Source: Bugula neritina
Lineage: Eukaryota; Bryozoa; Gymnolaemata; Cheilostomatida; Bugulidae
Reading direction: 5' to 3'
Assembly (NCBI GenBank): GCA_964035545.1
Contig: OZ037767.1
Span: 32,163,628 to 32,227,627 of the forward strand
Length of the DNA stretch: 64,000 nucleotides
This document shows, one piece after another, positions 367 to 36,430 of the stretch (the first letter of the stretch is position 1; every line of letters begins with the position of its first letter). Made by a program: the position numbers and the translations under genes. The notes beneath the pieces were generated by a model. That model was not told the origin of the DNA and made no database searches. It saw only the letters and a list, made by a program, of their open reading frames with translations.

Positions 367-442
367 AGACATCAATGTGTAGATATTCAGAATTATTGTA
401 TTTATAGAAACTTCTTCTTGGGGTAGTTTTCCCTTCAGCCAT

Positions 443-7071: not shown

Positions 7072-7136
7072 TCTAGCATCCAAATTGATCCTACAAATCA
7101 ATATAATATTTTTTCCAGTCAATTTCATATATTATT

Positions 7137-8981: not shown

Positions 8982-9277
<296 letters not shown>

Positions 9278-9644: not shown

Positions 9645-9650
9645 TATAAA
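9645..9650 (+). promoter_or_regulatory. TATA box of the PAN-domain gene
   Basis: TATAAA, 75 bp upstream of the ATG at 9725. This predicts a start near 9676 and a short 5' UTR. Confidence 0.5.
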
Positions 9651-9724
9651 ACATTCAACTTGTAAGTAGCTACAGACAGTTGGAAGGGAGATGTAGACGT
9701 TTAGCAAACATTCAGTTTGTCACT

Positions 9725-12683: not shown

Positions 12684-12806
12684 AGTTCTGTCTTGGTACT
12701 ATTTCCCAGAAGATGTTTGTATGCATGTGTAGTTGTCATTCCATTTCTGTTGTTGAGTATATAGCGCTTTTTCCATCAAGCATAGGTTGTATCATTTAGT
12801 TGCTTT

Positions 12807-12812
12807 ATTAAA
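12807..12812 (+). terminator. polyadenylation signal ATTAAA of the PAN-domain gene
   Basis: ATTAAA about 124 bp after the TAA. It is the common variant of the signal, and no AATAAA lies closer to the stop. Confidence 0.35.
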
Positions 12813-15013: not shown

Positions 15014-18000
15014 CTATAATATGTCTGTAGTGTTTATAAAACAAGGCGGGACTAAAGTGGCGGGATTTGCTAACGCTGCAATGGCTGAGTAAGTGGAGAT
15101 AACTCCCCCTACCAGTCCTATAGTTATCATAAACACAGCAAATATCTTCTCGTGCAGCTCTATCGATCTACAAACAGCGGGCAACTCCATTATCAGATAT
15201 ATATATATAAATATGTGTGTTACTAGAGAGTAGACAACTCTAGGTACGTTACTATAGAGTAGACAACTCTAGGTACGTTACTCACCTGCGCGGCCAGCCT
15301 CGGTTGTCCATAGAACAGAGTTTCCAGTAGAAGGCGCAGGGGAAGACGAAACTGAGTAGAGTTGTGGTGGACCCACCAATCAGAGAGAGAATAGGACCGA
15401 AATGCGGCACTAACTCGCCGACCAATAAGGCGAGAAGTGTGCACGCAGTTCTTGTTACAACCCGTTTCCACGTGAATCCTACAAATAGCATTCAACTGAC
15501 AAATGGCTATGAAGTTACCGTGGCAACCGAGCAAGTATATCCTGTTCAGAATGTATCCATGCTATAGACATGGCTGGTCTATTTAGTGTTTAGTAGAGAG
15601 TCATATTTCAGTGAGACAGTGAAGAGAGTCAACTCACGAGGGGGTACTTTGAACAGCTTCTCCACTCCTTGACACAAGGGGTTGATGACGATGGTGAATG
15701 CTGACAGCAGGTGTAGACAGATGAGAACCTGTACCAAGTAATACATCCAGGTGGGGTGGGCCTTGAGCGTGTCCAGTATGTTGTCACTCAGATTGCTGCC
15801 GAGCAGTGAATAGCCAACAGCAGCAACAGGAAGGTAGAGCACCATGAGGACTAGAAATATGCACAATGATTAGAGTGTGTGATAATGTGACCTTCTTATC
15901 AGCTGATAATGTGACCTTCTTATCAGCTGGTAGAGCAGATGGTAGAGCAGATGGTAGAGCAGATGGTAGAGCAGATGGTAGAGCAGCTGGTAGAGCAGAT
16001 GGTAGAGCAGATGGTAGAGCAGATGGTAGAGCAGATGATAGAGCAGCTGGTAGAGCAGATGGTAGAGCAGATGGTAGAGCAGATGGTAAAGCAGCTGGTA
16101 GAGCAGATGGTAAAGCAGATGGTAGAGCAGATGGTAGAGCAGCTGGTAGAGCAGATGGTAAAGCAGATGGTAGAGCAGATGGTAGAGCAGATGGTAGAGC
16201 AGCTGGTAGAGCAGATGGTAGAGCAGATGGTAGAGCAGATGGTAGAGCAGCTGGTAGAGCAGATGGTAAAGCAGATGGTAGAGCAGATGGTAGAGCAGCT
16301 GGTAGAGCAGATGGTAGAGCAGATGGTAGAGCAGCTGGTAAAGCAGCTGGTAGAGCAGATGGTAGAGCAGATGGTAGAGCAGCTGATAGAGCAGCTGGTA
16401 AAGCAGATGGTAGCACAGCTGATAGAACTGAACATCGTGTGACAAACTCATGTGACAAAACAGTCATATGTGAGTAAAGCAACTAGTTGGCTTTAAGATA
16501 ACAATACATACACAAGTTCAGTCATGTAGTTTAAAGAAAACAACTCCTGGATAAACTGAAGCTCCCAATAAATACCTGCGAAGCCCAAGAACACAGCCCG
16601 AGGGAAGTCTGTGGTGACTCCCATGTCGTGTTGAATTGTAGGGAAGGCGGAGGCGCCCCCGAAAGAGAAGAGTATTGTACCAAAGGCTAGAGCGAAGGAC
16701 TTCACGTCTATAGGCGTGTGAGTGACCTTGGAGGGCAGGTTGGTTGAGGAATATGAGGCTATGGCTGCTATGAGAAACCCGCAAGCTATGGCAGTGGCTA
16801 CTGTGGCTCCAACAGCTATTGGCCTGAAGGGAACACAAGTTGACACACACTGAGATACTACACTCTCACTCTCTGCTTATTGTTACTTGAATTGTTTGTC
16901 ACCGCAGAGGGCTAAGGCACTCTGTGTTGAGCTGATGAGGGGACAACTCCATACAACACCCTAACATATAGGACGAGGGAAAACTCACCAGAAGTCCTTT
17001 GGGGTGCCGAGCCACACGAAGGGGGTGAGGATGGCCACAAGAATGATCATCCAGAAGCAGGGAGAGAAACCAAGAGCCGGAACCTGCTGGAAGACGGCGC
17101 TAAAGTTGGTGGCTGCCAGCAGCATAAAGACCACCGAAACTCCAAAGAGGGTGAGGCTGACACAGACGGTCACTAAAATTCTGTGGAAATAGTGGTTGTG
17201 TATAGTGGTTATGTATAGTGGTTGTGTATAGTGGTTGTGTATAGTGGTTGTGTATAGTGGTTGTGTATAGTGGTTGTGTATAGTGGTTATGTATAGTGGT
17301 TGTGTAGAGTGGTTGTGTATAGTGGTTGTGTATAGTGGTTGTGTATAGTAGTTATGTATAGTGGTATAGTGGTTATGTATAGTGGTATAGTGGTTGTGTA
17401 TAGTGGTTGTGTATAGTGGTTGTGTATAGTGGTTGTGTATAGTGGTTTAGTGGTTACCTTCCAGCCCTACCGAATGCCTCAAAGCCGATGGCGGGGTAGG
17501 GGTCCCGGCACTGCTCCTGGTACTCCGGGAATCTCTCCTCCAGAATCAGCCAGCAACGTCCCAGTAGGATTCCACAACAACCAACCGCCACACAGCAGAA
17601 GGCAAGTATTACGAGTCCGATCCAGCCTATAAAGTATAACACAGCAACTATACAGTATAACAACTATACAGTATAACATACTATACAGTATAACATACTA
17701 TACAGTATAACATACTATACAGTATAACACCTATACAGTATAACGTCTATACAGTATAACATCTATACAGTATAACAACTATACAGTATAACATACTATA
17801 CAGTATAACATACTATACAGTATAACATACTATACAGTATAACACCTATACAGTATAACGTCTATACAGTATAACATCTATACAGTATAACAACTATACA
17901 GTATAACACCTATACAGTATAACACCTATACAGTATAACACCTATACAGTATAACACCTATACAGTATAACATACTATACAGTATAACATCTATACAGTA

Positions 18001-18904
18001 TAACACCTATACAGTATAACATACTATACAGTATAACATCTATACAGTATAACATCTATACAGTATAACAACTATACAGTATAACGTCTATACAGTATAA
18101 CGTCTATACAGTATAACGTCTATACAGTATAACAACTATACAGTATAACATATTACTAAACTGAGAGTAAAAGACTGAGAGTAATAGAAGGGGTACCTGT
18201 GTTCTCCACTGCCTTAGGTAGGGCAAGTACTCCGCTCCCCGCCATTTCTCCCACAATAAACACCATAGCAGTCCCAACAGTAAGTTTGTGAGCTGCATGA
18301 GCAGCATTGCTGCTGGAGCCACCATTCTTATCATTCAATAAAATACAAAGCCAAATTCAAATGTTGCTATGCGGAATCATATATCTGTTTACTATTGTCC
18401 ATTCAAGACGAATATATGAATGTGAAATATAGCTACTTTGTTTCCGTGAATAAATTTGAAAACACTATAGTATTAACATGCGTGTTATTGCAGTAACCTG
18501 CACCACTTGAATTAGGTGACAAAATAAGTAATTTAAGTTTTAACTCATAATTTTAGGCATTAAAATATAATAATTATCAAATTAGAAACAAATAACTCAT
18601 GAATTAAAATATTAAAAGTTAAAAAGCAAGTTATAATCGTAGTGATAGTACAAGTTTTCACTGTAAGTAAAACATTTAAAGTAGCTGTAATTGTAAAAAC
18701 TACACAAGTTAAAGCTCGGTTTTGTAATAGTAAAAGTATTAATATTATTAATTATCATTTTAACATTTCAAGCACCAAATTATTACTCACATCAACTGCT
18801 AAGAGAGCTTCTCTCTCCGACTCTGCCTCTCCCTTTAAAATGCTGGCATGCGGATACTCTCCACTGGGATTCCCTGAATCATCTTTCGACTCTCTAGCAC
18901 CCAT
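15014..18904 (-). CDS. AAAP-family amino-acid transporter, copy B
   Basis: Eight minus-strand exons: 18904-18791, 18326-18197, 17626-17458, 17180-16989, 16823-16576, 15850-15638, 15478-15286 and 15167-15014 (TAG). The product is 470 aa. Exon lengths 169/192/248/213/193/154 match copy A (169/192/245/213/193/151) with the same phases. The N-terminus ([16 protein letters not shown]..) is a soluble tail of about 50 residues before TM1. TM1 has [14 protein letters not shown], the loop is [21 protein letters not shown], and a later helix has [20 protein letters not shown]. It is a multi-pass transporter of the Aa_trans fold with unknown substrate; SLC32/SLC36-type relatives are the natural comparison. 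The main difference from copy A is the N-terminal tail. Introns hold three separate minisatellites. Confidence 0.92.
15926..16420. repeat. 12-bp minisatellite (AGCAGATGGTAG) in transporter B intron 5
   Basis: About 41 copies, with AGCAGCTGGTAG and AGCAGATGGTAA variants arranged in a higher-order pattern. It produces false open frames on both strands. Confidence 0.95.
17185..17452. repeat. 13-bp minisatellite in transporter B intron 3
   Basis: About 19 copies of TATAGTGGTTGTG starting next to the donor of the exon at 17626-17458. The first intronic bases (GTAACCACTAAACCACTATAC on the minus strand) already resemble the unit. Confidence 0.93.
17640..18152. repeat. approx. 17-bp minisatellite (CTATACAGTATAACA) in transporter B intron 2
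   Basis: About 30 copies of a partly palindromic unit. Lengths alternate by one base (AACATACTAT, AACACCTAT, AACGTCTAT). Confidence 0.93.
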
Positions 18905-20703
18905 TACGATTATAATTGTGATTCAAATGAAATGGCTAATTAACCAATTCTAAAGACACCACAGACTAAGCGTTCTAGTTCTAATTGAATATCGAGTCCT
19001 GAGACTTAGTTACTACTTACTACTTTGTAACTGCAAAGTAGTCTAAACAAAGTAGACTTTCTTTTGTCTTACTTGTACGCTTAGAGTTACACTTACTGTT
19101 AGTTCAATTTTAAATTCAGAGTTATAATTTTATCTATTTTACCTTTACTTTTAAGTTTTACCTTTATCGTTGTTATATTTATCACAGAGATTTGTTTAAA
19201 TAATAATCATAATGTGCTTAAATTTTAGTTATCATCATACTTTCCTCATAAGTTCAGAATGAAAATAAACGTTGACTTATTACTAAAATTAAAGGGAAGT
19301 ATTACGAAGTTGAAACAAGCGTAACAATACTTGCGGCCATGTTTTTATCATGTGATTGAAAAGGGGGCGTGAAAATTGTAACATGCGTTTGTTCGCAATT
19401 CCTGGTTGCTAGGTATTAACTGCTCGTAACTTAAAACAAATAATAAGAACTTAGTCTATAATTGTTTCTCGTTGCCATTTATTTATCAATGTTATTTGTT
19501 AAACGCCCACTTTTGTAATTACGTCATATTATATTGGCTGCATACACAGGTCCTTTTATAATTATTGCTCTTTGTTTCATGAAATCAGGATTTTGGGTTA
19601 TAAAAGAGACATAAATTTATTGACATATTATATTAATGTCACTTAAAAGTTAGAATTTTAGGGTGAGAGCAGGCATGATACAATCATCTAAGCTTAACAA
19701 GTATTTTATTACAGCTTTTGTGAAACTCGGTTGTGAAGTGTTTAATATATTACCATATAGCTGTTATTTCAATGATATTTATTACTCATCCTATATATCC
19801 CTCTTCTATCACATGAATGTACCAGCAAATAAAATATAAATAAATTAACTTTTTAGATAAATATGTACACCTATGTCAATTTACATGCTTTGGTTTCTCA
19901 TTACAAGAGTTGATAGATGACACACTTAGGGTGACAGAGATTGCTAAGCGCTTGCAAGGTGCTTGTTAACAGCTCACTCTAGGCCATTCCCAGTCTTTCA
20001 TAAAGCTTTATCAACATTGCATTAAGGGGGAATATATCATAAATATTTACAATTACTTGATCTGAAGATTTTAGTTGCAAAATAGTATCTATGTTATTAA
20101 ACACAAATCACTCATACTTTTATATAATCTTGACAGTAATAATTTAAACATAATTTTTAAGTACCTTTCACAGACAAAATGTCATAAATTGCAAACAATG
20201 TTTTTAGTGAGTTGATTCTAGCAAAATCATTGAAGCACTTCTTTTTAAATAAAAAATATATATAATTAAATTATATATTTATTATTTAGCACAATTATAC
20301 TAAATAGTTGATAATATTATTACTCTATTTTCTGATATAGTATATATATTTATACTTTATTTTCTGATAGAGCATATATATTATTAGCACATTTCATAAC
20401 TACAGTGAACTATAGATAGATGCAGAGGCTGCTGTGTAACTTGAAGCTATAAGTAAAAGTATGGGTCAATAAGCAGTACAAGATCAGCACTTAAAACTAC
20501 TGAAGATAAATTAATAAACTAATTTTAATATTATTGTTCATAGCATAATTGTTTTGACTAAACATCTGCATGCATAAACTAATTTTGTTGATAATTGAAT
20601 TGTATTGTGGAAATGAGTTGACACAACAGACCCTTTCTGCTATGCAAGCAGTTTAGTTTTGTTCACAGCTAATGAAATGATAACAAAACAGAGATAATTG
20701 TAA
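18905..20703. other. intergenic, possible bidirectional regulatory region
   Basis: This separates the divergent starts of transporter B and the first candidate androglobin first exon. It is AT-rich unique DNA. I see no exon, repeat array or RNA gene. Confidence 0.4.
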
Positions 20704-20774
20704 ATGCAGCAGTCAAACTCTGATCATATTGTAAATGCTAGTGAAGAGTTACCACTCAGTGAATCTACATATAG
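20704..20774 (+). CDS. candidate androglobin alternative first exon V1
   Basis: ATG through 23 codons to a phase-2 donor (TAT AG|GTAGGG). The peptide is MQQSNSDHIVNASEELPLSE then STY, acidic and Ser-rich, unlike the basic later variants. The -3 base is T, a weak start context. Joined to the acceptor at 33758 it makes Arg (AG+A) and stays in frame. It is the farthest upstream and least certain member because I found it by looking for the phase-2 pattern. Confidence 0.4.
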
Positions 20775-20888
20775 GTAGGGGATAATTTAACTTTATAATG
20801 TTACTGATTTTCTGAGCTGTTTTCATCTCCCTCAAAACGCTCTATCAAGTTAAATTACAAATGCTATGCTAGGAATATTCTAATTACT

Positions 20889-21966
20889 ATATATCACTGT
20901 ATTATTATATTACTACCTTCTTAGATATACATATTACACATACTATATATTATTATATTACTACCTTCTTAGATATACATATTACACATACTATATATTA
21001 TTATATTACTACCTTCTTAGATATACACATTACAAATACTATATATTATTATATTACTACCTTCTTAGATATACATATTACACATACTATATATTATTAT
21101 ATTACTGTCTTCTTAGATATACATATTACACATACTATATATTATTATATTACTACCTTCTTAGATATACATATTACACATACTATATATTATTATATTA
21201 CTGCCTTCTTAGATATACATATTACACATACTATATATTATTATATTACTACCTTCTTAGATATACATATTACACATACTATATATTATTATATTACTAC
21301 CTTCTTAGATATACATATTACACATACTATATATTATTATATTACTACCTTCTTAGATATACATATTACACATACTATATATTATTATATTACTACCTTC
21401 TTAGATATACATATTACACATACTATATATTATTATACTACTATACTACCTTCTTAGATATACATATTACACATACTATATATTATCATATTACTACCTT
21501 CTTAGATATACATATTACACATACTATATATTATTATATTACTACCTTCTTAGATATACATATTACACATACTATATATTATTATATTACTGTCTTCTTA
21601 GATATACATATTACACATACTATATATTATTATATTACTACCTTCTTAGATATACATATTACACATACTATATATTATTATATTACTACCTTCTTAGATA
21701 TACACATTACACATACTATATATTATTATATTACTACCTTCTTAGATATACATATTACACATACTATATATTATTATATTACTACCTTCTTAGATATACA
21801 TATTACACATACTATATATTATTATATTACTACCTTCTTAGATATACACATTACACATACTATATATTATTATATTACTACCTTCTTAGATATACATATT
21901 ACACATACTATATATTATTATATTACTACCTTCTTAGATATACATATTACACATACTATATATTAT
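20889..21966. repeat. 48-bp minisatellite, about 22 copies
   Basis: Units contain TATTACTACCTTCTTAGATA and are almost identical. The array ends 18 bp before the ATG of first-exon candidate V2, so it would lie in that exon's promoter or 5' UTR. Confidence 0.95.
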
Positions 21967-21983
21967 TTCATAGACCAAAATCC

Positions 21984-22078
21984 ATGTCACTTTCATCCTT
22001 CGGGGCCACAAGAACATCTCCCAACTCAAGCAAAGGGAAGAAGATCTCATTCCATGCATTAAGCAGTTTGCTTGTGAA
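21984..22078 (+). CDS. candidate androglobin alternative first exon V2
   Basis: ATG through 31 codons to a phase-2 donor (GTG AA|GTGAGT, near consensus). The peptide starts MSLSSFGATRTSPNSSKGKK and is Ser/Lys-rich. Junction codon with 33758 is AAA (Lys). The antisense strand of the same stretch is also open, but the plus-strand reading ends at a consensus donor and matches the other members. Confidence 0.55.
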
Positions 22079-22104
22079 GTGAGTCAAATTTAACTGTTAG
22101 TTAG

Positions 22105-22388
22105 ATACACTGCCCAGTATATAAGTATATATTATAGTGTGTATATACATACATCTACTAGCATATAAGTATATAAGTATATATATTATAGTGTGTATAT
22201 ACATACATATACTAGACACACTGCCCAGTATATAAGTATATATTATAGTGTGTATATACATACATCTACTAGCATATAAGTATATAAGTATATATATTAT
22301 AGTGTGTATATACATACGTATACTAGCATATAAGCATATAAGTATATGAGTATATATTATAGTGTGTATATACACATACATCTACTAG
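22105..22388. repeat. AT-rich repeat (ATATTATAGTGTGTATATAC)
   Basis: Five imperfect copies of a unit of about 45-80 bp, immediately downstream of V2. Confidence 0.8.
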
Positions 22389-22810
22389 CAAAGACCTTGC
22401 GGTGGAATGATTGGGATTAAACTGTTTACAAGATGTAATAGGGTAATGAGCTAACACTTTTCATTATTTGTTTTCACTTCTCAAGACAAGTTTTCACCAC
22501 TTATAGTAAGTCTAAGATACTGGCAGTCAAACTGAGAGAGACTGCTGAGTAGAAATGTACACAAATCAGCAACTTAAGAGATCAGCTCCAACCAACTGGC
22601 AGCTCAGGTTATATTTAATCAGTTTATTTAGCTCCTTAAGTCTAATCTGTGCACATATAAATACATTTAGAGCAGCTGTCATAAATATATTGAAAGTTTT
22701 TATTTCTAAATTAAAACTGCAATAGTTATAAATCTTGGAATACAATTATTATATTCATTGAGCTGAGGGAAGATCTGAAACGATATCTGAGGATTTAACT
22801 TAGCTTTGCT

Positions 22811-23172
22811 ATGAGCTTTCACAACCGACCTCAAATCAAACCTAACAGATTTTGTGCAGCAGCAAAATCAGTTATCAAGTTGAAGAAAGAAAATGGAAAG
22901 ACAACTGGAAGTAAAAAATTGCTTGATTTTGACTCTCGTAAAACAGATTTGACAGGAATCAGCTTTAAAACTGCCTTCAACACCAAAGACTTGACTTTAT
23001 CTGCCAGAAACAACTTGACTCTACCTGCCAGAAACAACTTGACTCTACCTGCCAGAAACAACTTGACTTTACCTGCCAGAAACAACTTGACTTTACCTGA
23101 CAGAAACAACTTGACTCTACCTGCCAGAAACAACTACCGTAGTCCATCTCCAAGTTCTCTAAACCCTTCCAG
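22811..23172 (+). CDS. candidate androglobin alternative first exon V3 with coding repeat
   Basis: ATG (context GCTATG) followed by 120 codons to a phase-2 donor (TCC AG|GTGTGT). The frame stays open beyond the donor to a TAA at 23282, so an unspliced 157-aa product is the alternative. The basic N-terminus (MSFHNRPQIKPNRF..) leads into a tandem 24-bp coding repeat at about 22991-23133, giving LTLPARNN six to seven times, then a Ser/Pro stretch (RSPSPSSLNPS). Joined to 33758 it makes Arg. No known domain is visible. Confidence 0.55.
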
Positions 23173-24082
23173 GTGTGTTGTAACTCTATCAGAAATAAAT
23201 TCAAAAGTTACCAAAGTTTTGAAACAAAATCTTGCGATTCTTGAGCTTGTCACTGACTGGTATTCAAAGTGCAACGTTGATTAATAATACTCCAATAACT
23301 TGTAGCCTTTTTATGTCATATGTCATTGACTTCTTCCATATCCTCATTGACCTCTTTAATCAGAGCAAATATCTTGTTTTAGTGATTATTCTGAGAGCCC
23401 TTTTAATGAACTGGTTTTAGTTTTAGTTAAAAATTCGTTTTATTTTTCATGCGCATATAACTGTAGTACAAGAGATCAAAGAATTATCCTCTCTTGACAC
23501 AGCTGAAAAATAACATCCATTGTATTTTAAAGTAGTTATATTCCCTATGCTATAATTATACATAAATCATTCTCCTTGAGTTGTATTTTTAAAGTCAAGA
23601 AGTATAGCAACCGACAGAATTAAATGTACCATATCAGTATTCTCTCTTGAAACACATTCTAGTCTTCATTTCCCATTCTTTGCAGCAAATCACTTGTAAG
23701 TCATGAGTATTATGTAGTTGAAGAGTTTAATGGATGGTATTGTGTATTGCTTGATGCCAAGGGTTGCTATGTTAACGCAATTCTGCTCCGACAGTTTTAG
23801 AGAATAAATTACAACATAAACACAGACTCTACAATAGAGTTCAATTATTGCTAAAGTAGGCACTGCCTTTATTCTATTGTGTAGAAAGCAAAATCCACAT
23901 TGTTTTAAGCTTTTAGCTCTACTTTGACTTTACACACTGCATTATCACACAGAATACAGCCACGACACTCTAGGGCAGGTGCTTTATATGCAAGGATAAT
24001 CTAGCTGCCTGTAAAACAGCCTAGCATGGTGAATTTTGCTTGAGTAGATAGCTATACCAATCAAATAGAGTATTAGAGACTT

Positions 24083-24096
24083 GTTGCTATGACGAC
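24083..24096 (+). promoter_or_regulatory. X-box-like (RFX) motif at V4 start
   Basis: GTTGCTATGACGAC fits the nematode X-box consensus RTHNYYWTRRNRAC at every position. RFX factors and FOXJ1 drive ciliary genes, and androglobin is known as a cilia- and sperm-linked gene. Overlap with the ATG is unusual, so this may be chance. Confidence 0.25.
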
Positions 24097-24159
24097 GCCA
24101 ACAACTAAGGGCAAGGACAAAGCGAGTAGGCTGTCCAGCGCAAGTCCAGCTGTGAAAGT
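24089..24159 (+). CDS. candidate androglobin alternative first exon V4
   Basis: ATG plus 23 codons ending at a strong phase-2 donor (AAA GT|GTAAGT). The peptide starts MTTPTTKGKDKASRLSSASP and is Thr/Ser/Lys-rich. Junction codon GTA (Val). The start codon lies inside an X-box-like sequence (24083-24096). Confidence 0.6.
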
Positions 24160-24387
24160 GTAAGTTGTAACATTTACAGACTTGGGATAATTTAAGTCAG
24201 ACTTGAGATACTTGAAATGGTCAGTTGTACTCAACTCTCAACTTGGCTTGCCTTGAGAATATGCTAGGTACAAACAAGTAGATGTGTGTTACTTATTACA
24301 CTCTCATAGGCATACATTGTGATATTACTTTTACATAATCAGCTCAACATCATATACGCTCTAGCAAATAATTCTACTATAACACAC

Positions 24388-25070
24388 TTTCATAGCACTC
24401 ACTTTCCTAGCACACACTCCTATAGCACACACTCCTATAGCACACACTCCTATAGCACACACTCCTATAGCATACACTTCTATAGCACACACTCCTATAG
24501 CACACACTCCTATAGCACACACTCCTATAGCACACACTCCTATAGCACACACTCCTATAGCACACACTCCTATAGCACACACTTCTATAGCACACACTCC
24601 TATAGCACACACTTCTATTGCATACACTCCTATAGCACACACTCCTATAGCAAATACTCTCATAGCACACACTTCTATAGCACACACTTCTATAGCACAC
24701 ACTCCTATAGCACACACTTCTATTGCATACACTCATATAGCACACACTCCTATAGCAAATACTCTCATAGCAAATACTCCTATAACACACAATCCTACAG
24801 CACACAATCCTATAGCACACACTCCTATAGCACACAATCCTACAGCACACAATCCTATAACACACACTTCTATAACACACACTCCTATAGCACACAATCC
24901 TATAGCACACACTTCTATAGCAAATACTCTCATAGCACACACTCCTATAGCACACACTTCTATAGCACACATTCCTATAGCACACACTTCTATAGCACAC
25001 ACTCCTATAGCACACACTTCTATAGCACACACTTCTATAGCACAACCTCTTCTATTATAGCATAGACCTC
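24388..25070. repeat. 15-bp minisatellite (TATAGCACACACTCC)
   Basis: About 45 copies between V4 and V5. It is open in several frames, giving spurious ORFs of up to 248 codons. Confidence 0.95.
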
Positions 25071-25457
25071 TATAGCAAATAATTCGATAGCAAACACTAT
25101 TATAGTATATACTACTATAGCATAATATACTCCCATATAGCAAACACTTCCACTGTGATATGCTATGCCAATATAAATTCCCAGCTCACAAGTATAACTG
25201 TATAACCTAGCAATAACTTGGAGGGACACAATGGCTGGTCTGCTAATTCTTTCACCATAACAATTTATTAATTTGGCACCTTAAAGACAAATAAGATGTT
25301 TTCTATTTGTCTAATGAGCAATTGTTCACGTGTCTTTGAGTTTGGCAGTAACTCAGTGCAGATTTGTATTTCAACTAACATAACATTGCTGGGCGGACAT
25401 GTTTGGCAGCGTAAAGCTAGCACTACGAGTCTAACAGCTGTCTGCTTGAACGTCAGC

Positions 25458-25513
25458 ATGCAGGGCAGCTCTAAAAGGAGTTTCAGGGCAACAAGTTCTC
25501 TCATAGGCAAGCT
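25458..25513 (+). CDS. candidate androglobin alternative first exon V5
   Basis: ATG (AGCATG, purine at -3) plus 18 codons, MQGSSKRSFRATSSLIGK, to a strong phase-2 donor (CT|GTAAGT). Junction codon CTA (Leu). Short, basic and Ser-rich like its neighbours. Confidence 0.6.
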
Positions 25514-26278
25514 GTAAGTCATTTTAAGTATTTAAAACATTATTTCTCTCATCATTATTTTTAGCAATGCTTAATTACCTGAACAGTGCTAGAACAGAAA
25601 CCATGAGTCATAGTCATAGTCTTTCATTATTTAATTAAACATAACAGTATATGACAGATCTTCAGCACCACCATTTCTATGCTGTCTGTCTGTGTGTCTA
25701 CTGTCTGTCTGTGTGTCTATAACTGTGTAAAGTACCAAGTATAGAGATTTTAATTATATACATATCTAAAGCATAAGGTGAGCAAATCTATAAATAACTG
25801 TGTGGCAACCTAATGCTACAGTTATGATTTATTTAAATTTCTAAATATTGTATTTCAATTAAAATTGATCAATATTTTATTCTGTATACTGTAATACGAG
25901 AGGCGATGGTGCCAGCCACTCGAAAACATAGCCACGTGTTTCAACTTAACGCAGATTGCGTCGCCTATAGCAAATGCCCTCACAGCTTTCAGATTTCGTT
26001 TTCTAAAAAAATAAAGCTAACGTTTTTCACGCATGATTACCAAGTTGCTATCCAATCCTTTGCTTGTTGTTTTTTGAAAAGTTTTCAATATAGAAATTGA
26101 TTCAGGAAACACAGCCCCGGGCGATCAGGAAAATCACTTCAAATTGTTTCAACATATCGCCAATAACTCTCACCCCAAAGAGCAAAGTTATTGAGCAGCC
26201 TAAAAGTATTCTTTTCTGATTACCCTCACCAGTCACTCGGTGATGTACTGCATAGTGTAGCAGAAAGAGAGATATAGC

Positions 26279-26403
26279 ATGTTTAAAAAGATTGCAGGAA
26301 AGGCGAGAGAAAGTGTCACACCAACTAAGGGTGCTGCCAGAGAAAGTGCTGGCCAATCACGGCACAGCAGCAGCGCAAAAGCTCTAATCAAAGTTCTGCA
26401 TGA
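26279..26403 (+). CDS. candidate androglobin alternative first exon V6
   Basis: ATG (AGCATG) plus 41 codons to a strong phase-2 donor (CAT GA|GTGAGT). The peptide begins MFKKIAGKARESVTPTKGAA and continues Ser/His/Lys-rich. Junction codon GAA (Glu). Unspliced reading would stop at once (GAG TGA), so an exon end here is needed for a longer protein. Confidence 0.65.
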
Positions 26404-27250
26404 GTGAGTTTTAAACAGAGGTCTTGTTTAGAAACAGTTTAATTTTAATTTTACTTGTATTTCCTTCTTACTCTATCGTAGCTTTATTTATTACTGTCAC
26501 TTTATCTTTCACTGTTAAGGTGCTTGATTGCGTATTTAACCAACAAGGGAAGAGCAACTCAAAATTTTATTTAGAGTACAACTGTTTTAAACTTAAATCT
26601 TCACTTTGTTTCATAACATGGACATTATTCATTGTATTGTTAAGCAAGCTTTTACTCAGAATATTGACAGAATGCACACAAATATTTTACTTCCACACGG
26701 AGAAAATTGTACAATTAAATTACTTCAAGTTTTTCCTATAATTCTGAGTCATGCATGGTATAGTCATAGTCCTAGACATAGTATAGTAATGGTAAAGCGT
26801 AATATATATGACTCCACAAGTAGTTGATGCTGTCACTATCTACCAATACTTGTGGTAAATTGAGTTCTAATAAAGAAAAAGTCTTATAGTACATACAGTA
26901 CATGACTGAATGAGTGAGTGTTTAGCTAAACTTGTTAACAACGCTGATTGTAAAATGTACGATAAGAGAAAATAATATTATATATGTTCTATAACTCTTA
27001 TCATTTTGAATATAAGACTAAGTTGCTAAGGTATGCCACACGCTGTAGTCATTACGTTGAGGTATCTACTTGACTTCACCCAGTCTCATAGTCTGCAGTC
27101 TTTAGCACTAGTTGCTCTTTTCTCTCCTTCTAGTGGCGTCAGGCTTTTGCATATTTGGGTCCTCTCCTTGAATATTAAAAGTAATTATTGAGTTGAAAAT
27201 TGGAATCAGCTAAACGGGAAAAGAAGGTGTATAGAACTAAGAGAAGCAGC

Positions 27251-27456
27251 ATGTCTGGGCGTAAGTTAAAGGGACCGGTCAACACTCTTCTCTCCGCTGA
27301 GAATTCTATCTCCACCGCGAGCAGACGGCTCTCAGCTCCCATACGAGATAAACTCAGTGGGGGGAGAAAGCTGACTCATGCTGCCTTAACTGACCTTAGC
27401 AGTGTTGCTAGCTCTTTCTTGTCTCCTAGAGATTTGAGACTGACACCAAAGACTGG
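27251..27456 (+). CDS. candidate androglobin alternative first exon V7
   Basis: ATG (AGCATG) plus 68 codons to a phase-2 donor (ACT GG|GTAGGT). The peptide starts MSGRKLKGPVNTLLSAENS and is rich in Ser, Arg and Leu, with RRLS, SPRD and TPK sites that basophilic or proline-directed kinases could use. Junction codon GGA (Gly). Length and codon pattern make this one of the better coding candidates. Confidence 0.65.
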
Positions 27457-27978
27457 GTAGGTTGATGCAACTAATTATTTCAAATTCCTTAAACAATATT
27501 GAGTGAATTGCTGAATACATAGTAAGAGGCCTTTAGTACACAGGCTATATCCCTGACCTACTAGGGAAGGTGATTGGGCTGAAGCTTACAGGATTATAGA
27601 GGGGGAGGTTTATGTTACTTGAGCACAACTCTTTCTCTCCTTCTCATACACTGTGTTATATTGTTTACTAGACTTGTGCAGTTCTACATAATGTATGCAG
27701 GATACATATTAACAGTTAACACAGACTCTAGCATAAAGTCTCTTTATCTCTCATCTCTTATTTACATACACTGAATCAACTGCCTAAAGTAATTCTGTCC
27801 TCTGAATAAAGATTAGGTTTAAGAAATGTAATCCTCTACCCAATATAATGTCAACCATTCAAGAAAGCTTTAGCTAGACATAGTTTATAGGTTTCTCTAA
27901 ACCTGCTGGCAGCATACATAAAGGCAGCTGCCGCAGACACATATAGTCATTTAGTCACGAGCGCAAAGTTTTAGTAGC

Positions 27979-28094
27979 ATGGCTAGTCCGCAGTCAAAAA
28001 GGTCTCGACTCAATGTTGTGGATGACTCATTGAGTAGAGGATCTCCTGTTGGCAGGTCTCGGACTACTAGTGCTGTGAGGTTGAACAGTGGAAG
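27979..28094 (+). CDS. candidate androglobin alternative first exon V8
   Basis: ATG (AGCATG) plus 38 codons to a phase-2 donor (GGA AG|GTTTGA). The donor is weak after GT. The peptide starts MASPQSKRSRLNVVDDSLSR and has further SPVGRSR/TTS segments. Junction codon AGA (Arg). A short TAACTGCTAACTAGG repeat follows at about 28160-28215. Confidence 0.55.
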
Positions 28095-28215
28095 GTTTGA
28101 GTTAGATATTTACTTAGTTTATATCTCTTACATCTAACACAGTATACTATACTAACTGCTAACTAGGTAACTGCTAACTAGGTAACTGCTAACTAGGTAA
28201 CTGCTAACTAGGGGC

Positions 28216-29508
28216 TGTAATACATTGCTTACCATTATAAAATAACTTAGTTTCTAGGAATATTATGTTTGTACGTGTTTTTTAAGGGTTAGCAAAACAA
28301 ATTTATGCCAAAGTGGTAATTTGCTTATGATAAATAATAACACTCAGGCTCAATGCTTAAATTTGTGATATTTTAGTAAAAATTCAAGTGTGGTAGCATC
28401 ATTTTCAATTTTAATTGGTGTTAAAATAATAATAATTTAATTACTTTAAAAACATTGTAGAAAACCTCTTGAATCGCCTAATTAACTTAATTCAACTTAG
28501 CACTCTCTTTTATAATATTTAAAAGTTTGCTGAGATCGAATGATATTTGGTTATCTGCTAATATATCCTTTGAGAACAAAAGCTAATCATAATATCCCGA
28601 CATTATGATATTTAGATGTTCCACATGCAAGATTACTGTTGTTGCTCCCTGCTCCCTGCTCTCGGCAGTGGCTGGTCATGGTGACATTATATAGAATGTT
28701 ATTTAAAGCTATATATTTTATAGAGCAGACAACCCTTAGACAGAAATACATACTACCATCACGCTAGTAGCGTTTATCCTTCACTGTTGCTAAAACATAT
28801 TTTTACTTCAATTTGCTAAACCCATCTTTGGTCTATATAGCCCAGTTCTTATTCACCCCACAATCTACACTCTATTGAGTTCAAAGCTGACATAACTATA
28901 AGCTGCCAAGTAGAAGGCAGCACTTCTCTTCTCGCTGTCCACCTGCAGCTAATACTTAGATCATTATTAAAGTCTATAAAGTATTGATTGCTGTGAATGT
29001 TTTATCAAACAATTCGCTGCTAAAAGCTACATGTGGTGTTGCTATGTTCTAATTCTCCAATACTTATAAAACAAACAAATATCCCTCTTAAGAAAACACT
29101 CTTTCCATTCATTAGTCTACAATTTCTTCAAATCAACAATTAACATGTGAATGAGTAACTAATTTCTCACCAATTAGACGTGAAGGCAGCAGCTCACTTC
29201 ACATAAGACTCTCTCTAAGAAAGCAGCAGAAAAGATAAAACTGCCGCAATATTTCCTTTCGCTTGAGGAAAGTTAATTCCCGGTGCTGATATCCCTGGGA
29301 AGTGGTGAACTCTTGACCTTACAAGCAAGTTCAGTCTTATATCAGGACAGAGCAGGGAGTCAATCATCAGAACAGAGTGACTGGAGCAAATCCAGTGGCT
29401 GATTGGTTATAACCTGAAACTGGAGAGCAGCGTTCTAATTGGTTACGTGACAGGAAGTAGCTAAGGGACAGGAAATAGTTAAGTGACAGGAAGTAGCTAA
29501 AGGACAGA
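28216..29508. other. unique sequence between V8 and V9
   Basis: AT-rich, with no further convincing first exon. Two ATTGG motifs (inverted CCAAT boxes) lie at about 29402 and 29438, roughly 70-110 bp upstream of V9, and could be promoter elements. Confidence 0.3.
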
Positions 29509-29645
29509 ATGGATGCGCTGCCTCCAGCCAGTCAGAGACAAGTAACCAAAGACAAACACCGCGGATCTATCAGCAGACCAGCAGCAGACCTGAATCAAAG
29601 AAGAGACAGTTTGGATAAATACAACAAGTCTAAAGACAGGTCAAG
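29509..29645 (+). CDS. candidate androglobin alternative first exon V9
   Basis: ATG (AGAATG) plus 45 codons to a phase-2 donor (TCA AG|GTAGTT). The peptide starts MDALPPASQRQVTKDKHRGS and continues SRPAAD..RRDSLDKYNKSKDRS, highly charged. Junction codon AGA (Arg). Confidence 0.62.
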
Positions 29646-29834
29646 GTAGTTAATGGACCAATCAAGTGTCTTCTACATTCAGTTCAGGTTATCCAACCAA
29701 TACCCATGTTCTTTTACAAAACTCTCCATATTGGTCAGGCATTGGGTTATGGAATTTTTCTGATATTTGTTTGCTTTCTTGGTCTTTTAATCATTTCATG
29801 GCAGATTAAACATTTAGATGCTTTAATTTTGTTT

Positions 29835-30035
29835 TAGTATTGCTATAGGTTTCCTCAAGGGGGGGGTTATGTTTTAGTATTGCTATAGGTCCCCTCAAGG
29901 GGGGGGTTATGTTTTAGTATTGCTATAGGTCCCCTCAAGGGGAGGGGTTATGTTTTAGTATTGCTATAGGTCCCCTCAAGGGGAGGGGGGTTATGTTTTA
30001 GTATTGCTATAGGTCCCCTCAAGGGGAGGGGGGGT
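29835..30035. repeat. approx. 43-bp minisatellite with poly-G runs
   Basis: Four to five copies containing TTTTAGTATTGCTATAGGTC and a CCCCTCAAGGGG palindrome. The length of the G run differs between copies (slippage). Confidence 0.9.
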
Positions 30036-31186
30036 TAATCCCTTGTTGATTGCTATGATTTTTCTTAGCTTCTATACCTCCTTAAATTTGAATTTTGCAG
30101 TGAAATCAAAGCACTTCTATTATTGTTAGTCCTCTAGCATTAGAGATTAAATCCTCAGACAGCGTCCCTCTCTTCCCCTTTCACCTCTTTAGCATGGTAT
30201 TGTAGCTTTGGTTTAGTGACTTTACCTCATTGAGGATGTACCTATATCTCACGCAGGTTGTGTTTCCCCATCACATATTCTATGATATACTCTATGGTAG
30301 ATTATAGAGTGGTGTCATCTCACTTAGACGCTTCCCAGTTAGACGCTATTTATTTATTTTGGTGCAATATGTATTTTATGTGCAATTTATTTTAATATCA
30401 TTGAAATAAATGTATGTTTAAATAAACTTGGATCAATTGTTTGCTATTTAGTACATAAATAAATTTTTTTGATCTGCATTAACTTATTAATTTTGCATAT
30501 TCTATACTTTTTGTTGTTTGAAAAAAATATTCCGTTAACAAATATTCATTAAAAATAATGTCTATTATTAATGTATTACTGTTTTTTGCCCCACACAAAT
30601 CTGCAAAAATTAGGCTATTATTCCAGATAATTTTTATTAGCTATTATAGCTATTATAAGCATGTATTAGCTATTTAGCAATCAACACACCAGTTATAATG
30701 TAAAAAATAGCGTCTAACTGGGAAGTGTCTAAGTAGGAAGTGTCTATCTGGGATGAAACCCATAGAGTATATTATATTACATGTCGTATTTACATAACTT
30801 GTGTATATAGTAGACAGATAGGCTGACATACACACATAGTTGAGACTTTGACTAAGTTCCGTATTGTTGTTGGGGGGGGGGGGTATTTGATGAGCCCCAT
30901 GACTGTGATTACAAAATAATCAATACTCTTCAGACAATAAGCTTCTGTATAGAAACATAGATGCAATTTTTGATTGATATTATCTATTGTTTCATCAATA
31001 CGTGCTGATTGTTGGCCAGTTCAGTGTTAGCGTGGCAAGTTACAGTCACCTGGATACTGCCGCACTCATCAGATAGAAGGGTTTATACGACAGGAGTAGA
31101 TGAGTGACGGCCACCGGGTTATTCTACTGCTTGCATACAGGAAGTAAACGAGTTTACTAAAACAACTGACAGACTTGCTTTGAGCC
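30036..31186. other. unique sequence between V9 and V10
   Basis: No exon recognised. It includes a poly-G run near 30872-30883 and inverted copies of a CTTCCCAGTTAGACGC-like motif (about 30330 and 30710). Confidence 0.35.
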
Positions 31187-31515
31187 ATGAGTGCACATCC
31201 CAGAAGTGTGACACAGATCGGGCGTTACCAAAACGCCCGCAAGAAAAGCAGAGATGAAGTGTTTCACCGACTAAGCAGATGGTACCCCTCTGTCTCGGAC
31301 ACCCCTGAGGAGGCCATCCTTCTGATGGTGAATGGAGGCAGCAGTCTCTCTGGAGCCGGCAGCACTCTGCCACCAAAGTCCCGAGTTGATCAGTACGTGC
31401 TGAGGACAGAGTCCAGAGTACAGTCAGTCTTAGAGACTCCGGACGTTATTTCAGAGTCACTCACTAAACCAGAAGGAGGAAAAATATCTAAGCTATTGCA
31501 GTTTAGTATGAAAGA
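31187..31515 (+). CDS. candidate androglobin alternative first exon V10
   Basis: ATG (GCCATG, strong context) with an in-frame TGA two codons upstream, so the start is well defined. 109 codons run to a phase-2 donor (AAA GA|GTGAGC); without splicing the frame stops at once (GAG TGA). The peptide starts MSAHPRSVTQIGRYQNARKK and includes FHRLSRWYPSVSDTPEEAIL, which looks partly folded. Junction codon GAA (Glu). It is the longest non-repetitive member and has clear coding character. Confidence 0.7.
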
Positions 31516-32323
31516 GTGAGCTACTTAAATTTATATACTAACAGCAAGTCTATAAGCTGAGTATAATAGGCAACACTGAGTTGTAAAATGTAGTTCACAT
31601 CAAATAACTTTATGGGTATGTTTACGTGCTATGCACTTGACTCTGTGAAGAAAGCCATAACTTGTAAACACAGTCAGTATTCTCACGTATTATATGTTAG
31701 GTTAGGCGGGACAATTTAGCTGTTGGTGTTGAAATTTGACTTTGATCACTACAGTTATTAACTAGGGTAACTGCATCTTGAAGCAATAAACTTTTGAACT
31801 GATTGTTATATTGGTGGAATAAGTAGAATTTACTATAAAAAATTATATGAAACAATAATTATCTTGTTTGAGCTATAAATAATGTGTGATTTGGCTTACC
31901 CATCCTGAACGTATCTGTATATAACACTGACAGTTTGGCAATTACTACATGCTTATTTTGTTGTAATTAAATTAGCAAACAAGCTATCAACCACTAACTA
32001 TTTTTAGTCATGTCTATTTCCACGTTTAAAGGGGGTAAAAGAACATTAAATAAAATAGTCCAGCGCCATAGTTTTCACAAAACTTCAAAATTATTGTTGG
32101 CTTCGACGAACTTAGGTGAAGTATTTTTGCTCAATTAAGAGTTGTGCACACTTGATTGTACTACAAAATGCGCATGCGTAAAATCAGTTGTATAAAATAT
32201 TACTGGGCAACGGATGAAATGGACACGAGATTCATCGTGCTATGCTAGTAATCTTTTTGAACAACTTAAATTTGTGTTCACAAAATTTTTCTTTATAATT
32301 GATAACACTTGATGGTTTTGAAT
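31516..32323. other. unique sequence between V10 and V11
   Basis: AT-rich, with no exon that I can support. Confidence 0.35.
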
Positions 32324-32385
32324 ATGCCTGCCAAAACTCCCAAAAGAGTAGAATCTAGAATGAATTCTGCAGCTCGAGGGCATGA
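32324..32385 (+). CDS. candidate androglobin alternative first exon V11
   Basis: ATG (AATATG) plus 20 codons, MPAKTPKRVESRMNSAARGH, to a phase-2 donor (CAT GA|GTAAGC). Junction codon GAA (Glu). It shares the basic, Ala/Ser-rich character and the CAT GA end of V6, though the sequences do not otherwise align. Confidence 0.6.
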
Positions 32386-33392
32386 GTAAGCATTAATTCA
32401 TAATTGACAACCAGTCACTGTCAGAACTTAAGTGAACGTAAACCGTAAACGGCGTAAACGTAGAGGTAGCATTCGATTCTAACTTCCAAGACCATAGTTA
32501 TACTTACAGTAATTGTTATTGTGGTTGTGTGAATGAGTATCGGAATGATTGGGCTGCTTATTTTTTCTGTGATGAAATTTAACTTCAAGTGCGAGTCACT
32601 TTTAGTTTTAGTGTGAGGAATTTTAATTTAAAAATGACACTCATTCCGAGCTGGCCGACAACTAACAATCACCGTGCCATTGTGATAGCTAAACTTACGG
32701 TAATAATTGTTATAAGTTATTTTCTAATTCAGTAATTTTAGTTCTCAGGGCTAAAATTTGCTGCAATATAAAAATTTAGTTTTTGCTCAAGATCTAGATT
32801 AGGTTGTTACTCTTATCTATGATTATGATAAGGTTATTGTCATTATGATTATGTAGTTGAATAGATAGCTGATCAGCTCGAAGATAACCCTAATTTAGCT
32901 AGAATAGACTTTAGAATAAGAATAATTAGTACGTCAATGTATGATCGTGTGTTTTTAACTCCTAAGAGCTCTACAAATCTCATTACTGCCTACTCACCTC
33001 TCTCTATTTCAAGTAATTCCTTCTTTCAGTCTAACAGATTTAATGTTTCTTGGTGTGTCCACATCAGCTTAACTCGAAATGAAATATAAATACTTCACCT
33101 CTCTTTTGATATATTTCTAAATATATTGAAACAAAAGCCTTACAACTTATATTTGAGCCTTTATTATACCAATGTTATAATCTAGTTTATGTATCTCTAT
33201 ATCTATAGAAAAATGTTGTATTCAGCTAGTTTTTAATTCAAAAACACTGAATATGATATGGGCATTGATAATAGTTACTGAGTGTTAATCACAGTAACCA
33301 TGTAACACTAGCACCTTGTTGTGATTAGTGTGACTCCATTGTGATTAGGGTAACGAAGTAGACAGTAGACTGCTATTTTTTGTAAGTAAAAC

Positions 33393-33478
33393 ATGGCAAG
33401 CAGGCGTTCTTCTAAAGTGCTCTCTGCCAAGCGAACAGCTAGCAATACAAACTCACAGAGCTTGGCGCAAGTGGATGA
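33393..33478 (+). CDS. ADGB: androglobin first exon V12 (nearest to exon 2)
   Basis: ATG (AACATG) plus 28 codons to a strong phase-2 donor (GAT GA|GTAAGA), 279 bp before exon 2. The peptide starts MASRRSSKVLSAKRTASNTN and is basic and Ser-rich, so probably disordered. Junction codon GAA (Glu). As the closest upstream exon in the right phase it is the default N-terminus. With it the whole gene model is 51 exons and about 2,199 aa. Confidence 0.75.
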
Positions 33479-33757
33479 GTAAGACTTGAAGTTACTTCTT
33501 TTCGATACAAATTGATTGTTTAGATACATTATCTTTTTTTATATTATGTAAGTTGTATGTGGAGAGTTGAGATTGGGTGACCATTCTCATATCAGCAGTT
33601 ATCTTTCCTATTGTGTCATGTGCTGGCGCTAAGTAATAAATTCTCTACTAGGCTGAGTATCTCAGGACACCTTCAAGTCGACAAGAGTCACTGTTTGAGT
33701 AGTTCTTGTAATGTACTTGAGTAGTTCTTGTAATGTACATAACTGTGTTTGTTTCAG

Positions 33758-36430
33758 AGCGGCCTCTTTGGCAAATCAACCCAAGAAGATTCAAGTTTGG
33801 CCCGAGTGGAGTGACAACGATGTGAATGCTGAGAAATGGGTATGACTTTAAAATATATAACCCTAGTATCTCATACTAGTAACTCATAATCTAGTACTAG
33901 TAACTCATACTCTAGTACTAGTCACTCATACTCTAGTACTAGTAACTCATACTGTAGTACTAGTCACTCATACTCTAGTACTAGTCACTCATACTTTAGT
34001 ACTAGTCACTCATACTCTAGTACTAGTAACTCATACTCTAGTACTAGTCACTCATACTGTAGTACTAGTCACTGATACTCTAGTAGTAACTCATACTCTA
34101 GTAGTAACTCATAACCACATTGTGATGATATGTTCCTCTGTCTCTAGGGCCCTTCTGGCATTTCCGTTTCCAAGGTAATTAAATAATATTCTGCAGGTTT
34201 GCTTTTCAATTCATTCTTCAGTTTGGCCCAACAAGTCTTGTGCATGGCTTGGGCTACATATATCTAAGTTGGGCTACATATATCTATGTTGGTCACGGCT
34301 GGCATATGATTTCAAGACTTTATCATCTGTGTGGTGTGGAACATCATGTATTTACTTGCGTATTCACTTCTCCACATTTGATCTGCTTCGTTTCATCCCT
34401 GAGTTGCTTTCATCTTTTGACAAAGTGATTTTCTGGTTTTTATGGCTGGCTGATGCTTCATATGGTTTATACAAATAAGTTGCTATTAGATACGACAAAA
34501 TAACAAATTATGCTAATCTGCTGTAATTAGTGTAATGTAAATATAATATATTTACTATTGATGTAATATAGTAATATAGGTATAATATATAATGTAATAT
34601 AGTAATATGAATTATAATATTATATAATGTATATGCAGTAATATAATTATGTAATGGTAACTACTGTGTTATGTTTTCCTACAGTTCAACTTAATTGCTA
34701 GATTGGCCGAGGTGAGAACATTTGGAAGTGAAGTTTTGATTTTAGTTTCTTATTTTCTAGTCAGCACTTCATTCATTTAATTCAGTAGCTGATGCAACTA
34801 CTACTACTAGTACTACTGCTACTGCTAGTACTACTACTAGTACTACTGCTACTGCCAGTACTACTAGTACTACTACTAGTACTACTACTAGTACTACTAC
34901 TAGTACTACTACTACTACACTAAATATCACGCTATTTTTGTCATTTCTTTTAAGCACTCCATGTTTTTATGTTTCGTCAACCTATAGTAATATTTTAATA
35001 TTGGACGTTGCTTTAGGATACGGCCCACAAAGGCAAAGATAAAGTCGAGAAAGGGAAATCTCCAGTAGTAAGTGTTACTACTTTCGTCTTATGCTCTCAC
35101 TACCTATTTGTATTCACATACCTGTATGTACACAGGTATGTACACAGGTATGTACACAGGTATGTACACAAGTATGTACACAGGTATGTACACAGGTATG
35201 TACACAAGTATGTACACAAGTATGTACACAGGTATGTACACAGGTATGTACACAGGTATGTACACAGGTATGTACACAAGTATGTACTTGCATATTACCT
35301 GCTGTTGAAGTTAATTCTGTCTTATTTGTTTCAGAGTTCGGGGATATTCTAGGAAAGTATGAGCTGAATAATACAGTGTTTTAATACAGCATGTTATAAC
35401 CCAGTATTATAATACAGTATAATGTGCTATAATATACAGTATAATGTGCTATAATATACAACGCTTTGCCTGCCACTCGTTGCAAGCTTTTCATGTGTAG
35501 TTTACACTGTAGTCCAAAAATGTAGTCACGTAGGCTGTTCCCATGCTGTAGCAGGTAATGCAACTACTGCTGCAAAATATCCACTGCACTATCACTCTGT
35601 TCCTGGTCTAATAACACCACAGGATGTAGTAAACTCTACCCTAGCACTCAATAGTACCCTTCACACTGTACTCAATAGTACCCTTTACACTGTACTGAAT
35701 AGTACCCTTCACACTGTACTCAATAGTACCCTTTACACTGTACTCAATAGTACTCTTTACACTGTACTCAATAGTACCCTTTACACTGCACCCAATAGTA
35801 CCCTTTACACTGTACTGAATAGTACCCTTTACACTGTACTGAATAGTACCCTTTACACTGTACTGAATAGTACCCTTTACACTGTACTCAATAGTACCCT
35901 TTACACTGTACTCAATAGTACCCTCTACACTGTACTGAATAGTACCCTTTACACTGTACTGAATAGTACCCTTTACACTGTACTGAATAGTACCCTTTAC
36001 ACTGTACTGAATATAGTAAAAACTGCATGTATAGTGTTCTAGTAATTATCCCCTCTTACCCAGGTAATTTCTGTTAAGTTTATTAGTTTTACCAAATGTC
36101 CTTAGGTCCAGCATTTCTTTGATGACCCTGAGGGGAAGGTAGACCTCCCGCCCTCACTGAGAGTCACGCACTGGAGGAGACCTCATGAGTATATCGTAGA
36201 TAAGGTAACTCCAACACACTGCTGTATGCTGCCAAATTCACAGCTAAATATCATATTCTTCTAACTATGTGTTAGACTCTGGCTTCAGAGGTGTAAATGT
36301 GCTGAAGAGATTTAAACTGAAGTTTCTCTACAAGTTATTTGTGTTTTAGACACCTCAAGTCGTTGACCTTGAAGAAGGTCAAACGCAATTTGATTTGCTG
36401 TCTTCCAATGAAGCGTGTTCGGAGAGCGAG
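33758..36430 (+). CDS. ADGB: androglobin exons 2-7, N-terminal segment
   Basis: Exons 33758-33839, 34148-34174, 34685-34711, 35017-35067, 36106-36204 and 36350-36430. Exon 2 carries the conserved entry motif (VWPEWSDNDVNAEKW) and the phase-2 acceptor shared by all first-exon candidates. Two 27-bp microexons (GPSGISVSK, FNLIARLAE) and a Lys-rich exon (HKGKDKVEKGK) follow, then HFFDDPEGKVDLPPSLRVTHW, the conserved lead-in to the calpain-like region. All downstream junctions here are phase 0, so the microexons could be skipped without a frame shift. Confidence 0.85.

Follow-up and report, generated by a model that had tools for sequence, protein, structure and literature searches.

The genes closest in layout to the one described here join a single constant part to a choice of first exons. 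In the UGT1A, GCNT2 and clustered protocadherin loci, the variable exons are large, domain-coding and arranged in tandem upstream of that constant part. Such variable exons arose by duplication (PMC1885805), and each first exon of UGT1 is preceded by its own promoter (PMC3325998, PMC1885805). In plectin (PLEC), exon 2 can be joined to any of twelve first exons, which encode short N-termini with known targeting roles, P1b being directed to mitochondria (PMC8468861). We analyzed a stretch of 64,000 nucleotides (hereafter, the window) from the bryozoan Bugula neritina (assembly GCA_964035545.1, contig OZ037767.1, positions 32,163,628 to 32,227,627 of the forward strand), which contains the gene for androglobin. 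Very probably, androglobin of this spiralian is provided with about 10 to 12 tandem alternative first coding exons in a plectin-like manner.

Twelve exon candidates starting with ATG (V1-V12), all of them open, follow each other on the plus strand between positions 20704 and 33478 of the window, upstream of androglobin exon 2 (33758..33839, plus strand). Each ends at a phase-2 GT donor, its length leaving 2 bases over in 12 of 12 cases, and the common exon 2, which begins AASLANQPKKIQVWPEWS and encodes AASLANQPKKIQVWPEWSDNDVNAEKW, has a single phase-2 acceptor (tgtttcag/AG, the slash marking the junction), the same junction being found in homologues. None of the 12 V exons creates a stop codon when joined to the frame at 33758; the junction codons are those for Arg (four), Glu (four), Lys, Val, Leu and Gly. 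Position -3 is a purine in all V exons except V1 and V2 (10 of 12), and the GC content of every V exon lies above that of both 300-base flanks (in V2, 0.44 versus 0.19 and 0.25). The initial annotation of this DNA had given the 12 starts, the phase-2 donors matching the acceptor before 33758, the stop-free junctions with the same six residues and the ten purines, and all of these were confirmed, the 12 exons being recovered also by the phase-blind scan described below. The median donor score was 4.2 for the V exons and 5.5 for the predicted exons of the androglobin body. The encoded tails, 19-121 amino acids (aa) long, are basic and rich in Lys, Arg, Ser and Thr, V1 alone being acidic. Compared with 144 control candidates under the same scoring, V peptides had a higher net charge (p = 7e-5) and a higher content of these four residues (p = 3e-7), and in charge and composition they lie near the mean of 59 homologous androglobin N-termini.

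Androglobin occurs in motile cilia and in sperm. In the scheme that we propose, transcription would start before one V exon, and the chosen exon would be spliced, past all downstream V exons, to the one phase-2 acceptor of exon 2 at 33758. From a single gene, the calpain-like/globin body would then be produced in many versions that differ in their tails, which are short, mostly basic and rich in Ser and Thr. Each exon would presumably have one promoter, be used to the exclusion of the others and be chosen in a cell-type-specific way, and the tails may, judging from plectin, determine where in ciliated cells and sperm the protein is localized.

Short frames running from an ATG to a GT are common, and the V exons might be chance open frames picked out by the annotator, with one real first exon only. 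In addition, a phase-2 donor reading GTAA, GTGA or GTAG itself makes a stop codon, which could bias the eye towards phase 2; we therefore scanned in all phases, taking each ATG from which at least 15 codons can be read without a stop up to a donor, in any of the three phases, that exceeds a fixed score. Codon scores were taken from a table trained on the androglobin body, that is, on our own gene model, which contains spurious tiny exons, whereas the splice-site tables, like the X-box matrix used below, were generic ones. The controls comprised 20 stretches of 10 kb from the same genome on both strands (400 kb). On the plus strand of 19000-33757, the scan at score 6 returned 13 non-overlapping candidates, namely the 12 V starts and one at 28625, which is probably noise. 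Phase 2 was found in 12 of these 13, in 8 of 9 at score 8 and in 6 of 6 at scores 10 and 12; only V8 deviated, being assigned to a phase-0 donor 20 bases upstream of its phase-2 one. The minus strand of the same region gave 2 candidates, and the 400 kb of control strand gave 144 (71 in phase 0, 35 in phase 1 and 38 in phase 2). With the control share as expectation, the binomial probability of 12 phase-2 candidates out of 13 is 1e-6; with one third, it is 2e-5. The initial annotation had counted the phase agreement as independent evidence only for the nine exons V4-V12, and the bias holds for these alone (8 of 9, p = 2e-4). Candidate density per 10 kb was 8.8 in the array and 3.6 in the controls, but 6.8 and 10.5 on the two strands of 1-18999, which contain a neighbouring gene and where no phase prevails, 5 of the 13 candidates on one strand and 8 of the 20 on the other being in phase 2. 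Thus, it is not the density of the array that is special but its one-phase make-up: no strand among the 40 of the 10-kb controls combined six or more candidates with a share of 80% or higher for a single phase, and the one that came closest had 10 of 14 in phase 0. Frequent as such frames are in the controls and on the strands of the neighbouring gene, the phase bias in a phase-blind scan, the uniqueness among the control strands and the relatives found for V10, V11 and V4 (see below) render the chance explanation very improbable.

The individual exons, all on the plus strand, vary in quality. V1 (20704..20774; 24 aa; donor GTAGGG; codon score 1.5), which is acidic and without the -3 purine, is doubtful, and V2 (21984..22078; 32 aa; donor GTGAGT; codon score 1.1), basic and Ser-rich, is probable. 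V3 (22811..23172; 121 aa; scan score 13.1; donor GTGTGT) contains an in-frame minisatellite at 22989-23135 with about six copies of a 24-bp unit encoding a repeated LTLPARNN, and its peptide may accordingly differ in length between individuals. V4 (24089..24159; 24 aa; scan score 12.6) is probably of the canonical type defined below. Next come V5 (25458..25513; 19 aa; scan score 6.6; donor GTAAGT), V6 (26279..26403; 42 aa; scan score 13.8; donor GTGAGT), V7 (27251..27456; 69 aa; scan score 17.3; a single match in the genome), V8 (27979..28094; 39 aa; phase-2 donor GTTTGA) and V9 (29509..29645; 46 aa; scan score 15.6). The last three, V10-V12, are described with their relatives.

V10 (31187..31515; 110 aa; scan score 28.1) has its homologue in bivalve androglobins, namely their long N-terminus of the 'YPSxSD' kind. 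In a phmmer comparison with 117 N-terminal stretches it matched Crassostrea virginica models at E = 1.2e-5; with a mollusc profile it scored 14.0 bits, versus 10.5 for the best of 2000 shuffles; and the shared core reads FHRLSRWYPSVSDTPEE in V10 and FYKTIKFYPSISDLPDD in the oyster. A second profile, of the canonical class, was built from 29 chosen N-termini. It marked V11 (32324..32385; 21 aa) as the canonical androglobin exon 1, with 15.6 bits, whereas 500 shuffles of V11 peaked at 10.8; V11 also resembles the N-terminus of the nearest relative, the contig-encoded protein P0001. V12 (33393..33478; 29 aa; scan score 8.1; lowest donor score), the exon nearest to exon 2, is not the counterpart of the usual androglobin exon 1, V11 corresponding to it instead. 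When the V peptides were compared by blast with 59 distinct N-termini, the score was reached by 0 of 200 shuffles for V10, 5 for V12, 25 for V6, 40 for V11, 153 for V4 and 58 to 195 for the remaining V exons. This test did not single out V4 or V11, and the similarity of V12 to other androglobin N-termini is suggestive.

For the nine exons other than V10, V11 and V4, no significant relative was found by profile or blast. The resemblance of V2 and V6 to mollusc and nemertean N-termini of an 'FKK...' class is suggestive (13 and 35 of 1000 shuffles, in 12 tests), but the class was picked post hoc and kinship is not claimed. Similarly, a link between the V10/bivalve class and the 'YP.LP..LDEIYDR' N-termini of echinoderms and hemichordates was not established by hhalign (E of about 0.09); the core profile run on seven of the latter sequences was equalled by 14 to 205 of 500 shuffles, and V10 itself did not match this class. 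Judging from the relatives of V10 and V11, the canonical and V10-like classes of first exon seem to be older than the split of this lineage from molluscs.

To place these tails among the N-termini of other animals, we used a protein search that found 151 proteins, 120 of which were listed and form the basis of the comparisons. Among the matches listed, the N-termini are diverse, and the variety mostly ends shortly before a common AASIAAS...WPEW stretch. Seven species having at least two listed proteins with different N-termini were picked by hand, which makes them a selection and not a rate; their 17 models are from the eastern oyster (4), the blue mussel (3) and, with 2 each, a sea cucumber, an amphioxus, a periwinkle, the zebra mussel and the tunicate Styela. 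Within each species, the models, different in their N-termini, are identical without a break from AAS on (AAC in the periwinkle), the identity starting one or two residues earlier in two species, which can be chance, and extending 15 to 590 residues beyond the start of WPEW (more than 230 in 5 of the 7). The residue preceding AAS is Arg or Glu in 46 of the 59 distinct N-termini, as expected where a first exon ends with AG or GA in phase 2 and exon 2 starts with a purine, and Arg or Glu likewise occupies the junction in 8 of the 12 V exons. P0005, an oyster-like protein with another distinct N-terminus, is encoded on a contig of 6358 bases carrying 1736 codons, and we therefore take it to come from a spliced message. 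Up to four kinds of androglobin N-terminus per species are present among the matches listed, and clustering at 90% identity may hide more. Two further protein searches, for 5' fragments and V exons of close relatives, returned 24 and 4 proteins, none above about 55% identity over the aligned part.

On the evidence of protein databases, variable androglobin N-termini extend beyond this genome to several animals. The isoforms of Crassostrea virginica and Mytilus edulis are the nearest case, with different N-termini joined at the same residue and one class homologous to V10; they are known at the level of protein records. Comparable variety at this point in the proteins recorded for molluscs and other animals suggests that the gene layout is old and has received little notice. 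The initial annotation had known of no androglobin with variable N-termini. As far as published descriptions go this stands, no paper describing alternative androglobin N-termini having been found in the literature searched, which left subscription journals mostly outside, but such N-termini are themselves present in the databases. A 2026 survey offers 'isoforms or annotation artifacts' as a possible explanation for multiple sequences per species (PMC13331133, section 6), and a term search of its text found neither 'alternative' nor 'first exon'.

Two X-box-like sites accompany V exons, one at 24083..24096 (plus strand), overlapping the ATG of V4 (p = 0.002 versus control windows), and the other at 32199..32211 (plus strand), 125 bases before V11 (p = 0.015). 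Over the 12 exons, the Fisher p is 0.001. The X-box, bound by RFX, is an element of ciliary genes. In human cells, ADGB expression is raised by RFX2 and FOXJ1 (PMC7949040).

Several observations weigh against the use of all 12 exons as alternative first exons. The array is known here from genomic sequence alone, not as messages. V1 is unlike the other V exons and could be noise, codon scores are low in V2 and V5, and the donors of V8 and V12 are weak (2.8 and 2.7), the phase-2 donor of V8 at 28095 being outscored by the phase-0 donor at 28075 (3.9). Significant relatives were found for only 3 of the 12 V exons (V10, V11 and V4), for V4 by the class profile alone, where its 10.4 bits narrowly exceed the 9.7 of its 500 shuffles; in the blast test V4 was equalled by 153 of 200 shuffles, and shuffles of V5 reach 14.1 bits on the canonical-class profile. 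The models from other species are mostly automatic predictions, and the Asp junction residue of one of them, P0045, misfits phase 2 followed by a purine. The X-box signal, finally, comes from two exons alone, the other ten having p values of at least 0.05. In an alternative view, only a few exons (V11, V10, V4 and perhaps others) would be used, the rest being decayed or incidental frames in a long first intron, and both the restriction of significant relatives to V10, V11 and V4 and the low codon scores of V1, V2 and V5 speak for such a view. Decayed exons, however, would be expected to drift in frame and to lose their donors, whereas phase 2 and the rise in GC are common to all 12 and the charge and composition of the peptides are distinct as a group. 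We therefore regard this alternative as unlikely, while treating V1 as doubtful and V2, V5 and V8 as weaker members of the array.

Further points on the same side concern the mode of splicing, since some or all of the V exons might be serial or cassette exons of a longer N-terminus, containing in-frame Met codons, with which their 2-2 phase is compatible. The predicted acceptors of the body score 0.4-8.6, and the best acceptors before the ATG of V2 (3.3), V3 (1.5), V5 (3.7) and V8 (0.8) and, in another phase, of V6 (2.8) and V7 (0.7) lie within these limits, mostly towards the lower one. The ATG of V5 is immediately preceded by a fair phase-2 acceptor, the repeat before V2 contains several, and those of V3 and V8 are weak phase-2 ones. 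Moreover, a scan for internal exons, at a threshold giving 34 matches in the body (30 overlapping predicted exons), gave five in the array, at V3, V6, V7, V9 and V10, which it scored from acceptor-like sites inside V3, V7, V9 and V10 and 15 bases before V6. On the other hand, V1, V11 and V12 lack any AG in the interval from the last in-frame stop to the ATG, and the best pre-ATG acceptors of V4, V9 and V10 score under every predicted body acceptor. Half of the V exons thus have no acceptor in the range of the body and cannot well be internal; serial splicing is disfavoured for these six, and for V2, V3, V5, V6, V7 and V8 it is the less likely of the two modes. Furthermore, the different N-termini of other species join the common part directly, and twelve consecutive exons with a Met near the start would be odd. 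Taken together, a serial arrangement appears quite improbable.

Because all five matches of the internal-exon scan fall at V exons, the scan found no other exon between them at the threshold used, in agreement with the initial annotation, which had seen none in the intervening DNA. The same result bears on whether some V exons are small independent genes, for which V10 and V3 would be long enough alone, or first exons of another transcript. With no internal-exon match elsewhere in the array, with the relatives of V10 being androglobin N-termini and with the neighbouring gene running the other way, we consider this extremely improbable. Alternative first exons feeding one androglobin body, as originally proposed for this locus, thus provide the best reading, which is based on the junction seen in homologues, the relatives of V10, V11 and V4 and the lack of other exons in the scanned interval. 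The upstream limit of the array is the first coding exon (18791..18904, minus strand) of a divergent amino-acid transporter (Aa_trans, E = 7e-31); because this gene begins at 18904 on the other strand, the array occupies the space between two genes.

The locus resembles UGT1A, GCNT2 and the clustered protocadherins in having tandem variable first exons and one constant part, and to this extent the likeness to UGT1A and protocadherins drawn in the initial annotation is justified. The likeness does not extend to paralogy: unlike the exons of those clusters, the androglobin V exons are short, mostly without detectable mutual kinship, and precede folded domains. Among the 66 pairs of V exons, the best, V2-V5, reached 0.007-0.010 per pair, which is not significant after correction. 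The DNA matches among the V regions are limited to a minisatellite, the overlap of neighbouring stretches and two matches of 14-22 bases, and V4 and V11 may both be of the canonical type. Since the V exons mostly show no detectable relationship to each other, plectin is the closer parallel, about a dozen first exons giving it short N-termini that differ from one another, a pattern seen in androglobin as sequence alone. The proteins are different, however, and the first exons of plectin have shown roles in expression and targeting, whereas those of androglobin would have such roles by analogy.

The body of the gene extends over predicted exons from 33758 to 62621 (plus strand) and, according to the gene model and Pfam, has a calpain-like part and androglobin domains II, IV and V. 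Peptidase_C2 (partial), Androglobin_II, Androglobin_IV and Androglobin_V scored above the Pfam cut-off, and FAP42_B2 below it; the Pfam globin, a domain expected to be interrupted by an IQ motif, had no match in the pieces of the model that were scanned. When the 242 residues of the 5' part of the body were searched against the 215.8-Mb genome, they matched five places in the window and one weakly elsewhere (C58, E = 7e-4, 37% identity over 60 residues, internal stops). With one good locus for this part, we take androglobin to be a single-copy gene; V10, like V7, was also found once in the genome. A quick tree of 32 proteins placed the body among spiralians (SH-aLRT, the approximate likelihood-ratio test support, 98), with P0001 as its sister and annelid and nemertean proteins near.

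In Tetrahymena, androglobin belongs to the ciliary central apparatus (PMC8175508), and in the mouse it is needed for male fertility (PMC9249397). Despite this link to cilia and this role in fertility, the function and regulation of androglobin are poorly understood. If the array is used as proposed, work that tags or deletes one N-terminus, or relies on one annotated protein, would cover only part of androglobin, and some of the multiple sequences per species could be genuine, originating from an old gene layout. The V exons would also be handles for asking which tail goes to which cilium. More tentatively, and with considerable doubt on our part, the array might be an ancient N-terminal address system, in which a battery of first exons was kept, at least two classes of them predating the split from molluscs, and each unit of promoter and exon would send one and the same protease-globin scaffold to its own kind of cilium, flagellum or cell compartment. 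Further different tails are present within single species of echinoderm, amphioxus and tunicate.

Elsewhere in the window, the predicted divergent gene on the minus strand of 1-18904 contains an amino-acid-transporter start in two copies, suggesting that two transporter genes lying in tandem were fused in the gene model. Near the other end, on the minus strand, a 90-aa open frame at 63271-63543 has what we take, by eye, to be a resemblance to THAP/P-element transposase; it gave no Pfam match at 0.01. The region from 12000 to 36000 and the androglobin introns are packed with minisatellites, with 39 tandem-repeat rows, some overlapping, in these 24 kb, one of them about 1 kb long. Behind exon 2, at 33874-34103, lies a 21-bp repeat of the TACTAGT type with many relatives elsewhere in the genome: a 243-base query containing it had 81 genome matches, nearly all in the repeat part.

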